Origin: an uncultured Chloroflexota bacterium
GTDB lineage: Bacteria; Chloroflexota; Anaerolineae; Aggregatilineales; Phototrophicaceae
DNA length: 5,285 nucleotides
Direction: 5' to 3'
Assembly (NCBI GenBank): GCA_903904765.1
Contig: CAIVEA010000095.1
Location: 1-5,285 of the forward strand
Shown: piece after piece, positions 2,444 through 5,285 of the stretch
Numbering within the stretch: position 1 is the stretch's first letter
Layout of the letters: each line of letters starts with the position of its first letter
Made by a program: the position numbers and the translations under genes
The notes under the pieces: generated by a model
Seen by the model: the letters and a program-made list of their open reading frames with translations, nothing else
Database searches by the model: none
What the model was told of the DNA's origin: nothing

Positions 2444-3301
2444 ATGTACGGTAAAGGCATTGTGAACGGCTTGTGGGTCACATTCACCCACTTCTTCAAT
2501 ACCTATATTGACGACATCCGTTATGCCGGGCGCAAGTATCTGCGTCAGGAAAACTTTGAAGTCCGTCAAGGTCTTAAAACGCAGGGTGCATTCACAGTAC
2601 AGTACCCGGATGAAAAGATCGCGGTTCCAGAGCGTTTCCGCTTCGTCCCGTTTCTCGTCACCGAAGATCAAGACCCGGCACGTATCGGCGAAGATTGGTG
2701 TACCAGTTGCGGCATCTGCGCCAAAGTCTGCCCACCCCAGTGTATCTGGATTGTGCGTGGTAGCGACCCGGTCACAGGTCGCCCTGTTCCCCAGCCAGAT
2801 GCTTTCTTCATTGACATTGACATCTGCATGAACTGCGGCTTCTGCGCCGAGTTCTGCCCGTTCGATGCCATCAAGATGGATCACAACTACGAACTCGCCA
2901 GCTACGACCGCACCCGTCATCACATTCATGACAAGCAGCGCCTCTCCAAGCCACACACCTACTGGAAGACAATTGCTCCCACCACCGCCCTCGAAGAAGC
3001 AGTTGAACGTGGCGGTTGGGAACATTCGGATATCCTGAAGGGTATGAAGAAGGCAGGGCAGCAGGCCATCGCCCCCACCAAAGAAAACATGTTCCCAGTA
3101 CATGCGCCGGTTGTGGCGGCTGAAGCGCCCGCCGCTGAAGCGCCTGCCAAACCCGCCCGCCCCGCCAAAAGCGACGCGGCTCCGGCAGAAGCCAAATCTG
3201 CTGCACCTGCTGCCGAAGCATCGGCTGGCGATGCGCCCAAGAAGCCTAAGTTCGACAAACAGGCCATGCTCGCTAAAATCCGCGAGAAAAAGGGCAGCTA
3301 G
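2444..3301 (+). CDS. nuoI: NADH-quinone oxidoreductase subunit I (NuoI) with long C-terminal extension
   Basis: This 285-residue protein is the 8Fe ferredoxin-like subunit of complex I that carries clusters N6a and N6b and passes electrons towards N2. The N-terminus (1-20, YGKGIVNGLWVTFTHFF) is the amphipathic, membrane-facing segment usual for NuoI. The first 4Fe-4S motif has Cys86, Cys89, Cys92 and Cys96 followed by Pro; the second has Cys128, Cys131, Cys134 and Cys138 followed by Pro. In each motif the fourth cysteine goes to the other cluster, as in 2[4Fe-4S] ferredoxins. The family core ends near residue 205; E. coli NuoI is about 180 residues. Beyond it is an Ala/Pro/Lys/Glu-rich tail (about 218-268) with tandem AEAPA units, ending in FDKQAMLAKIREKKG (270-284), nearly the same as the NuoB C-terminus. 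It is the last gene of the operon, since a terminator begins 12 bases after its stop. Subunits E-H do not lie between NuoD and NuoI. Confidence 0.96.
   Translation: MYGKGIVNGLWVTFTHFFNTYIDDIRYAGRKYLRQENFEVRQGLKTQGAFTVQYPDEKIAVPERFRFVPFLVTEDQDPARIGEDWCTSCGICAKVCPPQCIWIVRGSDPVTGRPVPQPDAFFIDIDICMNCGFCAEFCPFDAIKMDHNYELASYDRTRHHIHDKQRLSKPHTYWKTIAPTTALEEAVERGGWEHSDILKGMKKAGQQAIAPTKENMFPVHAPVVAAEAPAAEAPAKPARPAKSDAAPAEAKSAAPAAEASAGDAPKKPKFDKQAMLAKIREKKGS
3119..3148 (+). repeat. Tandem 15-bp repeat in the nuoI tail
   Basis: Two adjacent 15-base units (3119-3133 and 3134-3148) differ at one position and encode AEAPA twice. They lie in the low-complexity tail of NuoI and probably reflect slippage-driven growth of a flexible linker. 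Confidence 0.7.
3251..3295 (+). other. C-terminal FDKQAML-x-KIRE-x-KG motif, NuoI copy
   Basis: This segment encodes NuoI residues 270-284 and is the partner of the NuoB copy at 472-516. The two proteins are not homologous to each other, so the shared end points to duplication and transfer of a tail module, or strong convergence, within one operon. Confidence 0.75.
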
Positions 3302-3312
3302 TCTAAACCCTT

Positions 3313-3345
3313 ATGGGGCGAGTCAACCTCGCCCCATTTTATTTC
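3313..3345 (+). terminator. Intrinsic terminator after nuoI
   Basis: A perfect 10-bp stem (ATGGGGCGAG at 3313-3322 with CTCGCCCCAT at 3328-3337) closes a five-base loop TCAAC and runs into TTTTATTTC. It starts 12 bases after the nuoI stop and separates the respiratory operon from the DUF2256/photolyase-like pair. Confidence 0.92.
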
Positions 3346-3370: not shown

Positions 3371-3547
3371 ATGCGCGGCGTACCCAAACAACACCTCCCA
3401 ACCAAAACCTGCCCTGTCTGTGGCCGCCCGTTCACATGGCGCAAGAAATGGGCGAAAAATTGGGATAGCGTAAAATATTGCAGTGATCGCTGCCGCAAGC
3501 ACCGCACGGATTCATCCCCTAGTGCCTCATACTCACAGGATGGATAA
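3371..3547 (+). CDS. DUF2256 small four-cysteine protein
   Basis: This is a 58-residue protein of the DUF2256 family. The core [15 protein letters not shown] (13-27) followed by VKYCSDRC (34-41) is the family hallmark. Cys14, Cys17, Cys37 and Cys41 form a C-x2-C...C-x3-C set that would suit a zinc-binding knuckle; that is inference from the pattern. The protein is basic (many Arg and Lys) and Trp-rich for its size. The biochemical role of the family is not known to me. From memory, members often sit beside photolyase/cryptochrome-type genes, and that holds here: the stop (3545-3547) is one base before the ATG of the photolyase-like gene. The start at 3371 gives the usual N-terminal length. 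No Shine-Dalgarno motif precedes it; the leader is pyrimidine-rich. The last 14 or so residues are not part of the conserved core. Confidence 0.9.
3537..3540 (+). promoter_or_regulatory. Likely ribosome binding site deciding the photolyase-like start
   Basis: AGGA lies inside the 3' end of the DUF2256 gene, eight bases before the ATG at 3549. This favours 3549 over the in-frame ATG at 3540, which would overlap the motif itself, and over the GTG at 3483, and suggests translational coupling to the DUF2256 gene. Confidence 0.55.
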
Positions 3548-3548
3548 C

Positions 3549-4859
3549 ATGTCCGCTTCGATGGGCCATGCGTTCACCAACCGGGATGACCTGATAGACT
3601 ATTTGCGCCAGCAATTCCCTCAGGCTTACGAGCGTGGCAGCGAAGTCAGTCCCTTACGGGGTGGCTACGCCGCCGCACAAGAGCGCCTGCGCCACATCCA
3701 ACCTGCCCTCTATGCATCTACCCGCAATCATGTAGATGGCGCTGTCACACGCCTCTCGCCATATATCCGGCATGGTGTCCTCTCGTTAGCTGAGGTACGC
3801 GATTTCGTACTTCAGCAGGCCAGCGCACCCGGCGAAGCCACAAAGCTCCTCAACGAACTGGCATGGCGCGATTACTGGCAGCGTCTGTATACCCACCTCG
3901 GTGAAGCAATAAATAGCGATCTTGAACCCGACAAGACCGGCATTCCCGCCACCGAGCGCACGAATACCCTCCCGGCGGACATCGCCGCGAGTCGCACCGG
4001 ACTGGCCTGCATGGACGCTTTCAGCACCGAACTACGCAAGAGCGGGTATCTGCACAATCATGCCCGCATGTGGCTGGCAGCATATATTGTCCACTGGCGG
4101 CGTGTCACATGGCAGGCAGGCGCGGCATGGTTCCTCGAACATTTGCTGGATGGTGACCCCGCCAGTAATCATCTCTCGTGGCAGTGGGTTGCCAGCACCT
4201 TCAGCCAGAAACCCTACATCTTCAACCGCGAAAACCTCGAACGCTACACACACGGTCAATATTGCCAGAACTGCCCTATGCGGGGTCGCTGCGATTTCGA
4301 GGGTACGTATGAGCAACTCGAACAGCGGTTGTTCCCACCCCGCCATTTACTACCCTCATCTCCTGCCGCACCCACAGCAGGCTTGACCACGCTACCCGCA
4401 ACTACACCCGCGCCTAATCCCCCCATAACCCATCCGGTGATCTGGATTCACGGGGACTGCCTCAGTCCGTCCGCGCTCCGACGCTTCCCCTCTGCCCCTG
4501 CTATCTGGGTATGGGATGATGAACTGCTGCAACAATGGCGCATCAGCTTCAAGCGTATTGTGTTCATCTATGAATGCCTGCTCGAACTGCCCGTCACCAT
4601 CCAGCGCGGTCTGCCAGCGAAGGAACTTCTGCGCTTTGCAGAGGAGCACCACGCTGATGCCATCCTCACCACCCCTAGCCCATCCCCCCGCTATACTGCC
4701 ATTCTCCAGCAAATCAAGCCGCGTTATAGTGTGATCGAGAAAACCTCACTGCCATTTCTCCAGTATTCGGGTGCGCTCGACCTACGTCGTTTCAGCCGCT
4801 ACTGGCAGATCGCACAGAAACAGGTCATCCAGCCTACGTCCCTCAGTAATGAGGTGTGA
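3549..4859 (+). CDS. Photolyase/cryptochrome-family flavoprotein with permuted domain order
   Basis: This 436-residue protein starts with the FAD-binding helical domain of photolyases (about 40-235): TRLSPYIRHGVLS (67-79), NELAWRDYW (102-110), LHNHARMW (168-175) and LLDGDPASNHLSWQWVAST (199-217). With a constant offset of 171 to E. coli PhrB as I recall it, E103, W106, N170, M174 and W213 match the CPD-contact residues E274, W277, N341, M345 and W384; N207 matches the flavin N5 contact N378; and W211 and W188 match W382 and W359 of the Trp triad. W306 has no counterpart. Cys154, Cys239, Cys242 and Cys248 resemble FeS-BCP cluster ligands. After a Pro/Ala/Thr-rich linker (269-295), residues 297-400 (VIWIHGDCLS, AIWVWDDELL, FKRIVFIYECLLEL, RG-x5-LLRFAEEHHADAI) look like the normally N-terminal alpha/beta domain. 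It probably repairs UV photodimers or senses light in the cytoplasm; repair activity is inferred. In-frame starts at 3540 and 3483 are less likely. Confidence 0.88.
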   Translation: MSASMGHAFTNRDDLIDYLRQQFPQAYERGSEVSPLRGGYAAAQERLRHIQPALYASTRNHVDGAVTRLSPYIRHGVLSLAEVRDFVLQQASAPGEATKLLNELAWRDYWQRLYTHLGEAINSDLEPDKTGIPATERTNTLPADIAASRTGLACMDAFSTELRKSGYLHNHARMWLAAYIVHWRRVTWQAGAAWFLEHLLDGDPASNHLSWQWVASTFSQKPYIFNRENLERYTHGQYCQNCPMRGRCDFEGTYEQLEQRLFPPRHLLPSSPAAPTAGLTTLPATTPAPNPPITHPVIWIHGDCLSPSALRRFPSAPAIWVWDDELLQQWRISFKRIVFIYECLLELPVTIQRGLPAKELLRFAEEHHADAILTTPSPSPRYTAILQQIKPRYSVIEKTSLPFLQYSGALDLRRFSRYWQIAQKQVIQPTSLSNEV

Positions 4860-4966: not shown

Positions 4967-5285
4967 ATGACTGACCAAAATGCACAGGTGATGGCGGCGC
5001 TCAGCACCGTCATTGAACCCGAATTACACCGCGACATCGTATCGCTGAACATGGTGCGCGACCTCCAGATTGACGGCAGCACCGCGAAGTTCACGATTGT
5101 CCTCACCACACCCGCCTGCCCGTTGAAAAACGTCTTTCTCGATCGCTGCAACGCAGCGGTCATCGGTCATGTTGAAGGCATCACCAAACTGGACATTCGC
5201 TGGGACGCGCAAGTGCCGACAGATCGCAAAATTCACGGTCTAGTCAATGTCCCCATGCGTAGCCTGATCGCCGTCGCCAGCGGCA
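4967..5285 (+). CDS. Mrp/ApbC-type iron-sulfur carrier P-loop NTPase, N-terminal part, 3' end outside window
   Basis: 106 codons are visible and the frame runs off the window. Residues 8-85 form a MIP18 (DUF59) domain: VMAALSTVIEPELHRDIVSL, then MVRDLQI (29-35) and LTTPACPLK (46-54) with the conserved Cys51. After a short linker the protein reads RSLIAVASG (98-106), exactly the strand that leads into the deviant Walker A motif GKGGVGKS of Mrp/ApbC/Nbp35 NTPases; the motif itself falls beyond base 5285. A MIP18 domain fused in front of the NTPase is the common bacterial Mrp layout, with a usual total of about 350-370 residues. Such proteins bind a [4Fe-4S] cluster at a C-terminal CxxC pair and transfer it to target proteins in the cytoplasm; neither the ATPase core nor the CxxC can be seen here. 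A free-standing MIP18 (SufT-type) protein is the alternative, but the ASG strand argues against it. The gene follows 107 bases of non-coding sequence and probably has its own promoter. Confidence 0.88.
   Translation, partial: MTDQNAQVMAALSTVIEPELHRDIVSLNMVRDLQIDGSTAKFTIVLTTPACPLKNVFLDRCNAAVIGHVEGITKLDIRWDAQVPTDRKIHGLVNVPMRSLIAVASG

Follow-up and report, generated by a model that had tools for sequence, protein, structure and literature searches.

Photolyases in which the catalytic FAD domain stands before the antenna domain have been described more than once. In picocyanobacteria, Haney et al. (2022, mBio, PMC9426592) reported the FAD-first order both within a single gene, Phr6, which they named in Cyanobium PCC 7001, and across two genes, Phr4 and Phr5. 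A second inverted group, the NewPHLs (Emmerich et al. 2020, NAR), is recognized in PMC9426592 and PMC13274461, the latter treating NewPHL and SPL (short photolyase-like proteins) as one. The reversed domain order itself is not new, having been in print since 2022, and the premise of the first-pass annotation that known photolyases place the antenna first does not hold. A search of the open-licence literature for an inverted photolyase with a C-terminal antenna gave no paper under those terms.

The window, meaning the whole stretch of 5,285 nucleotides analyzed here, carries in order a fragment of nuoB, a fused nuoCD, nuoI, a DUF2256 gene, the photolyase gene, and a SufT/DUF59-like gene (Table 1), and the DUF2256 stop codon finishes 1 base upstream of the photolyase ATG. 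The PF03441 match to the photolyase has an E of 6.1e-25, the whole protein is modelled with a pLDDT of 93.7 and a pTM of 0.93, and P0070, a protein whose source label is Cyanobium sp. PCC 7001, is 52% identical to it over 95%. Relatives are numerous, since at least 7664 of 8000 scored candidates lie at E<=1e-10, a number that may include ordinary photolyases. Thus, the earlier description of the family as widespread stands, but not as uncharacterised, given the reported disruption of phr4 and expression of phr4/phr5 in E. coli. The window protein is very probably a Phr6-type light-driven DNA repair photolyase, in which a catalytic FAD module and an antenna module, two genes in most sampled relatives, are fused through a flexible linker.

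Table 1. Features of the photolyase gene and its neighbours, in window coordinates.
Feature	Position	Strand	Basis
Phr6-type photolyase (probable), fused FAD-antenna gene, 436 aa	3549..4859	+	ORF, PF03441, similarity to P0070
FAD module, residues 1 to about 265, PF03441 core 101-225	3549..4343	+	
Cys154, first of four conserved Cys	4008..4010	+	Cys in 202/208 family rows
Asn170 and Met174, CPD-photolyase residues at the PhrB His366/Leu370 sites	4056..4070	+	Alignment to E. coli chain
Cys239, Cys242, Cys248	4263..4292	+	All four Cys together in 193/208 rows
Pro/Ala/Thr-rich linker, residues 266-294	4344..4430	+	pLDDT mostly 72-77
Antenna domain (predicted), residues 295-397, relative of PF00875	4431..4739	+	Profiles, PDB profile search, fold comparison
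C-terminal motif LRRFSRYW, residues 412-419	4782..4805	+	Invariant or >=90% at most positions, alignments A2 and A4
DUF2256 (PF10013), 58 aa, small Cys-rich protein	3371..3547	+	E 1.2e-23
Terminator-like hairpin, nuoI/DUF2256 gap	3313..3337	+	2 such sites against 1.6 expected by chance, weak
DUF59/SufT-like gene (PF01883), truncated by window end	4967..5285	+	Pfam match; same neighbour in L012 and L062

The C-terminal segment as an antenna domain

Taken from the window sequence by itself, the identity of the C-terminal segment would be a weak guess. PF00875 is absent from a scan of the whole protein at E<=1, and the last 148 residues alone reach E 0.032, short of the cut-off. Among eight homologues scanned, PF00875 lies behind PF03441 in P0059 (E 7.5e-6) and P0068 (E 2.5e-5), narrowly missing the cut-off; weaker matches come from four others (E 0.0016, 0.005, 0.005, and 0.77), and two give none. 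The likeness to the antenna domain put forward in the first-pass annotation is weak from one sequence and becomes clear through family profiles. An alignment of 38 C-terminal domains (A4), compared by hhalign with seven N-terminal antenna domains taken from ordinary photolyases in related genomes (A5), gives 98.2% and E 3.3e-14 over 111 columns; control comparisons with A5 column-shuffled three times reached E 0.0038, 0.24, and 0.6, and one with a reversed alignment reached 0.46. With larger sets (218 against 65 rows), the values are 98.5% and E 3.1e-15.

When A4 was run against 151 Chloroflexota genomes, the frames with the nine strong matches (E<=1.3e-13) measured 101-281 aa, and each of the 20 weaker matches (E 4.7e-10 to 3.0e-4) precedes a photolyase FAD domain, 19 of them in the same frame and one, L135, with the FAD domain in the neighbouring frame. 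A profile search of the PDB returns five matches at E<=0.001, every one the N-terminal domain of a photolyase or cryptochrome. Folded alone, the segment is predicted with a pLDDT of 88.4, and photolyases top the VIA-align list, followed at no great distance by universal stress proteins. Taken together, the profiles and the confident predicted fold argue clearly for a true antenna domain, and the FAD-first, antenna-second reading of this single ORF is confirmed (PF03441 at residues 101-225; hhalign 98%, E 3e-14; predicted fold). Past the part that matches PF00875, an almost invariant LxRFSRYW motif lies in the final helix.

One candidate for a common antenna chromophore, 8-HDF, was rejected as a general answer. 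Arg336 pairs with position 51 of the A. nidulans chain, though the pairwise alignment is very weak (0.2 bits), and meets a conserved Arg in the A4/A5 profile alignment, and Arg51 is crucial for 8-HDF according to PMC9178010. The 8-HDF synthase gene cofH exceeds the cut-off in 4 of 26 genomes, these four all being carriers labelled cyanobacterial, and two more come near; matches of about 300 bits, which fall below the cut-off, are presumably relatives of cofH. The rejection follows because cofH misses the cut-off in all eight Chloroflexota genomes that carry the antenna gene.

Two genes, their co-occurrence, and the fused form

In 65 of the 79 classified loci, drawn from the best 80 genome loci (L001-L080), the two domains lie in separate ORFs or no antenna is found nearby. 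The FAD and antenna ORFs are adjacent in 46 loci (including L060, reassigned by hand from the non-adjacent class because its two ORFs overlap), no antenna ORF lies within 700 bases downstream in 19, the two are fused in 11, and 3 are cut by a contig end. The fused L053 stands outside this count owing to short coverage, and L153 and L156 were removed as repeats. Two of the loci scored as not adjacent, L048 and L058, have an antenna ORF 4.5 and 2.6 kb downstream. Across 49 adjacent pairs (the 46 plus L123, L124, and L128, with start codons picked by rule), the ORFs overlap in 18, are separated by 0-30 bases in 12 and by 31-200 bases in 16, and lie farther apart in 3. At 20 of the 80 loci there is no antenna match whatsoever, and the 12 of their genomes that were searched each have exactly one stand-alone antenna ORF elsewhere, of 139-161 aa.

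The same pairing is observed in broader samples. Among 146 evenly drawn cyanobacterial genomes, the FAD gene occurs in 25 (E<=4e-130), and each of these 25 carries the antenna gene as well (E<=1e-15); by coordinates, four of these pairs are 0.48-4.9 Mb apart on one contig and four are on different contigs. Among 151 Chloroflexota genomes, the antenna gene is present in 7 of 7 carriers. Over both phyla (297 genomes), 32 of 32 carriers have both genes (30 of 30 without the centre genomes G001 and G009, which were chosen as known carriers), 264 have neither, and one has the antenna only. Fisher's test gives p 3.7e-42, which is not a true probability, since the genomes are related to each other. 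The antenna-only case is the Chloroflexota genome G094, where no FAD gene was found and the antenna locus (L125) has no FAD match. In the cyanobacterial sample, G282 has a FAD-like match (E 2.5e-68, residues 44-238 of a 451-aa frame) with no antenna match; its score and span suggest a NewPHL-like protein, and G282 was placed with the genomes that have neither gene. Treating it as a carrier would make the co-occurrence 32 of 33. The FAD gene of G142 is itself divided between two frames, and the antenna gene of G118 extends across two contigs. Neither unlinked antenna genes nor this co-occurrence was found in print in the open-licence literature searched.

The window shares its neighbourhood with split relatives. 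In L062, an Anaerolineae MAG, and L012, a MAG labelled Pleurocapsa, the order nuoB-nuoCD-nuoI-DUF2256-FAD-antenna-sufT is that of the window (NuoCD identity 80% and 78%, respectively), but FAD and antenna are two ORFs, joined by a 4-base ATGA overlap in L062 and separated by a 3-base gap in L012; L065 keeps the window's gene order as far as its contig reaches. The window itself has the two modules in a single frame, connected by the linker. It is unlikely that this frame is an assembly artefact, because all 120 homologues among the matches listed, the window's own included, have FAD then antenna in one chain, though the list was ranked on a full-length fused query and so favours such proteins.

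Fused and two-gene forms are intermingled in a tree of 121 rows, which requires at least 12 state changes. The tree was run in 'quick' mode, has 54 of its 117 inner branches drawn open and long branches that meet, is poorly resolved around the window, and takes its P rows from the list biased to full-length fused proteins; it supports repeated switching between fused and split states but not the direction of switching. Circular permutation of an ordinary photolyase gene, through tandem duplication and new ends, would yield the observed order, and it agrees with the true homology between this antenna domain and that of ordinary photolyases. However, such an origin is hard to square with relatives whose genes are separate and in some cases far apart, with the mixing of forms in the tree, and with the absence of any single open frame spanning both domains among the 32 carriers sampled from the two phyla, and it appears quite improbable; a permutation may have preceded a later gene split. 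For photolyase circular permutation, the open-licence literature searched had nothing on point, judged by listings. Given the separate-gene relatives, the co-occurrence, and the two-ORF loci in the same neighbourhood, the order in the window looks like the fusion or fission of two cistrons that most relatives keep apart rather than a permutation. Thus, of the 'circular permutation or domain shuffle' suggested earlier, the reversed order stands, and circular permutation is not needed.

Among the MAG records, L006 ('Tatlockia') groups tightly with the Chlorogloea locus L077, and L012 ('Pleurocapsa') has a Chloroflexota-type nuo neighbourhood; both are probably misbinned. A separate observation concerns the nuo genes. 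In the window, NuoB (13-519) and NuoI (2444-3298) have long Ala/Pro-rich tails with near-identical closing peptides, KKFDKQAMLDKIRERKGN and KPKFDKQAMLAKIREKKGS. In L062, L012, and L065 the NuoB and NuoI tails are again alike but share a different basic motif (about REEALARKRA), as though both tails changed in concert.

DUF2256 lies directly upstream of the FAD gene in 14 of the best 80 loci, namely all 9 labelled Chloroflexota (including Roseiflexaceae and Anaerolineae), 4 of 6 labelled Acidobacteria or Bryobacteraceae, and L012. A DUF2256 gene is present in 22 of 25 genomes searched; in Nostocales-type loci it lies away from the photolyase genes, and in G012 (L204) it stands directly behind a different photolyase-like gene. 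A functional link between DUF2256 and photolyases is likely, and no paper treating the two together was found in the open-licence literature. The acidobacterial genome G010 has two copies of the DUF2256-FAD-antenna cluster, each followed by another photolyase-like gene (L104, L108, L196, L208; L090, L095). In the cyanobacterial loci L186-L193 and L195, DUF2256 adjoins a gene that starts with an IIHGGAGSS motif and is presumably isoaspartyl peptidase-like.

Pocket residues, cysteines, and tryptophans

The Asn and Met of the class I CPD pocket are both present in the window protein, where N170 and M174 align to positions 341 and 345 of the E. coli chain. Among 208 family rows, 120 of which come from the list biased to full-length fused proteins, N170 is kept in 206, M174 in 191 (the other 15 have Leu), E103 in 206, W106 in 195, and W188 and W211 in all. 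The comparison with the (6-4) photolyase PhrB draws on a study that we take to be by Graf et al. In that work (PMC4619345), the PhrB exchange H366N, which puts in the CPD-photolyase residue, abolished (6-4) repair, and Met is named as what CPD enzymes have in place of Leu370. By way of the E. coli alignment and PMC4619345, the equivalent of His366 in the window is Asn170, so that the catalytic His is missing. These CPD-type pocket residues suggest that the reversed-order family consists of CPD photolyases.

This reading runs against that of Haney et al., who proposed (6-4) repair from the cysteines and from the UV-C bias of a mutant (PMC9426592). The window's Cys154, Cys239, Cys242, and Cys248 have the 85-3-6 spacing of C169, C254, C257, and C263 of RS9916 Phr4, listed in a figure legend of that paper; the 15 family rows that lack at least one of the four (Cys242 in 6) are all homologue-list proteins. 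In RS9916, the phr4 mutant survived UV-C 20-30 times less well, with UV-B survival unchanged, and in E. coli phr4/phr5 protected against UV-C to an extent that did not differ significantly in light and in darkness, according to PMC9426592. The UV-C data do not decide between CPD and (6-4) repair, and protection of this kind is odd for a photolyase. An Fe-S-containing (6-4) photolyase, the type that Haney et al. proposed for Phr4/5 and Phr6, would accord with the four FeS-BCP-like cysteines and with the mutant's sensitivity to UV-C but not UV-B, yet the near-invariant Asn at the catalytic His position and the loss of (6-4) repair in H366N weigh against it, and it is considered unlikely here. 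CPD repair by a short Fe-S photolyase protein is said to have been shown by Xu et al. 2021. That work is also credited, in PMC9649867, with a short photolyase ancestor that combines CPD activity with an Fe-S cluster, which likewise argues against the (6-4) assignment.

Protection in E. coli that did not differ significantly between light and darkness (PMC9426592) could also point to a cryptochrome-like photoreceptor without repair, and the wider family does include photoreceptors. However, E103, W106, N170, and M174 are kept in 91-99% of the 208 rows, and such a role is regarded as highly improbable.

For the window protein as a CPD photolyase, a mechanism can be outlined. The antenna domain would fold beside the FAD module and might pass light energy to it; the reduced FAD would then inject an electron into a cyclobutane pyrimidine dimer held in the CPD-type pocket (N170, M174, E103, W106). 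Photoreduction might use W188 and W211, which correspond to two members of the classical tryptophan triad, and the four cysteines, judged by spacing and homologues, would hold an iron-sulfur cluster that steadies the protein. In class I enzymes, the third Trp is W306. The window protein has no Trp between residues 111 and 174 and hence offers no clear candidate for the third Trp of the triad, while Trp occurs at the residue-122 column in 190 of 208 rows (Ile in the window) and at the residue-132 column in 46. Thus, the tryptophan chain of the window protein may differ from that of its relatives.

Relation to NewPHLs and other named photolyases

The rows called NewPHL-like here (L162-L165, P0121-P0240) were assigned to the NewPHLs indirectly, their comparison being with this family rather than with a characterised NewPHL sequence. 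They have Asn in 115 of 115 and Met in 114 of 115 rows at positions 170 and 174, and Cys154 in 105 of 115, but Cys at 242 and 248 in none and at 239 in none of the 114 letters shown. Their C-terminal domain matches the antenna domain at 27% and E 7e-4 (eight shuffled controls 0.069-0.61, one reversed control 0.42); with a smaller set, the match is 15.7% and E 0.0017, to be set beside the E 0.0038 reached by a shuffled control of another comparison. Against ordinary antenna domains, it is 3% and E 0.013. The NewPHL Z-domain may be a decayed antenna domain. That the window protein is itself a NewPHL, an inverted photolyase for single-stranded DNA, would agree with its FAD-first order, its CPD-type residues, the position of NewPHL-like proteins next to the family in the tree, and a Trp dyad that a citing paper reports for one NewPHL. 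Given that the window has all three cysteines that the NewPHL-like rows lack, and that their C-terminal domain matches its antenna domain so weakly, this identity is barely plausible.

A broader hypothesis is about as likely as not. In this model, reversed-order photolyases would at root be obligate two-subunit enzymes, comprising a small Fe-S FAD subunit for CPD repair and a stand-alone antenna subunit, sometimes encoded far apart and many times fused in the order FAD-antenna. If so, at least some 'short' photolyases would have their alpha/beta domain encoded by another gene, and the idea that the family descends from antenna-less ancestors would need re-testing. The family is a natural split photolyase, with catalysis and antenna on separate chains that co-occur and in some lineages are joined; consequently, the antenna's contribution to repair can be tested directly by adding or removing one natural subunit. 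The useful additions of this work are the two-gene state across phyla, the co-occurrence, the fusion in place, and the CPD-type pocket. The published (6-4) assignment is put in doubt, as would be, if SPLs belong here, the view of short photolyases without an antenna.

Set beside the named systems, the window protein shares with the class I CPD photolyase of E. coli (1dnp) the FAD domain and the pocket residues, but the antenna comes first in class I and second in the window. Class I enzymes have a Trp triad and are not known to hold an Fe-S cluster. The FeS-BCP (6-4) photolyases such as PhrB (PMC4619345) resemble it in a FAD domain with cysteines that hold Fe-S, and differ in an N-terminal antenna and a catalytic His, where the window has a C-terminal antenna and Asn. 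SPLs, known here from descriptions, likewise lack an N-terminal alpha/beta domain and are credited with CPD activity and an Fe-S cluster (PMC9649867), whereas the window's family has an antenna, either behind the FAD domain or as its own gene. NewPHLs share the inverted order and, in the NewPHL-like rows, the CPD-type residues, but those rows lack three of the four cysteines and the Z-domain matches the antenna domain weakly. Phr6 and Phr4/Phr5 of marine Synechococcus and Cyanobium (PMC9426592) have the FAD domain first, the antenna second, and the same cysteine spacing, and like the window's family they exist in both one-gene and two-gene forms; the window differs from them in its Chloroflexota-type nuo neighbourhood, in the DUF2256 gene upstream, and in a pocket that would be of the CPD rather than the (6-4) type.
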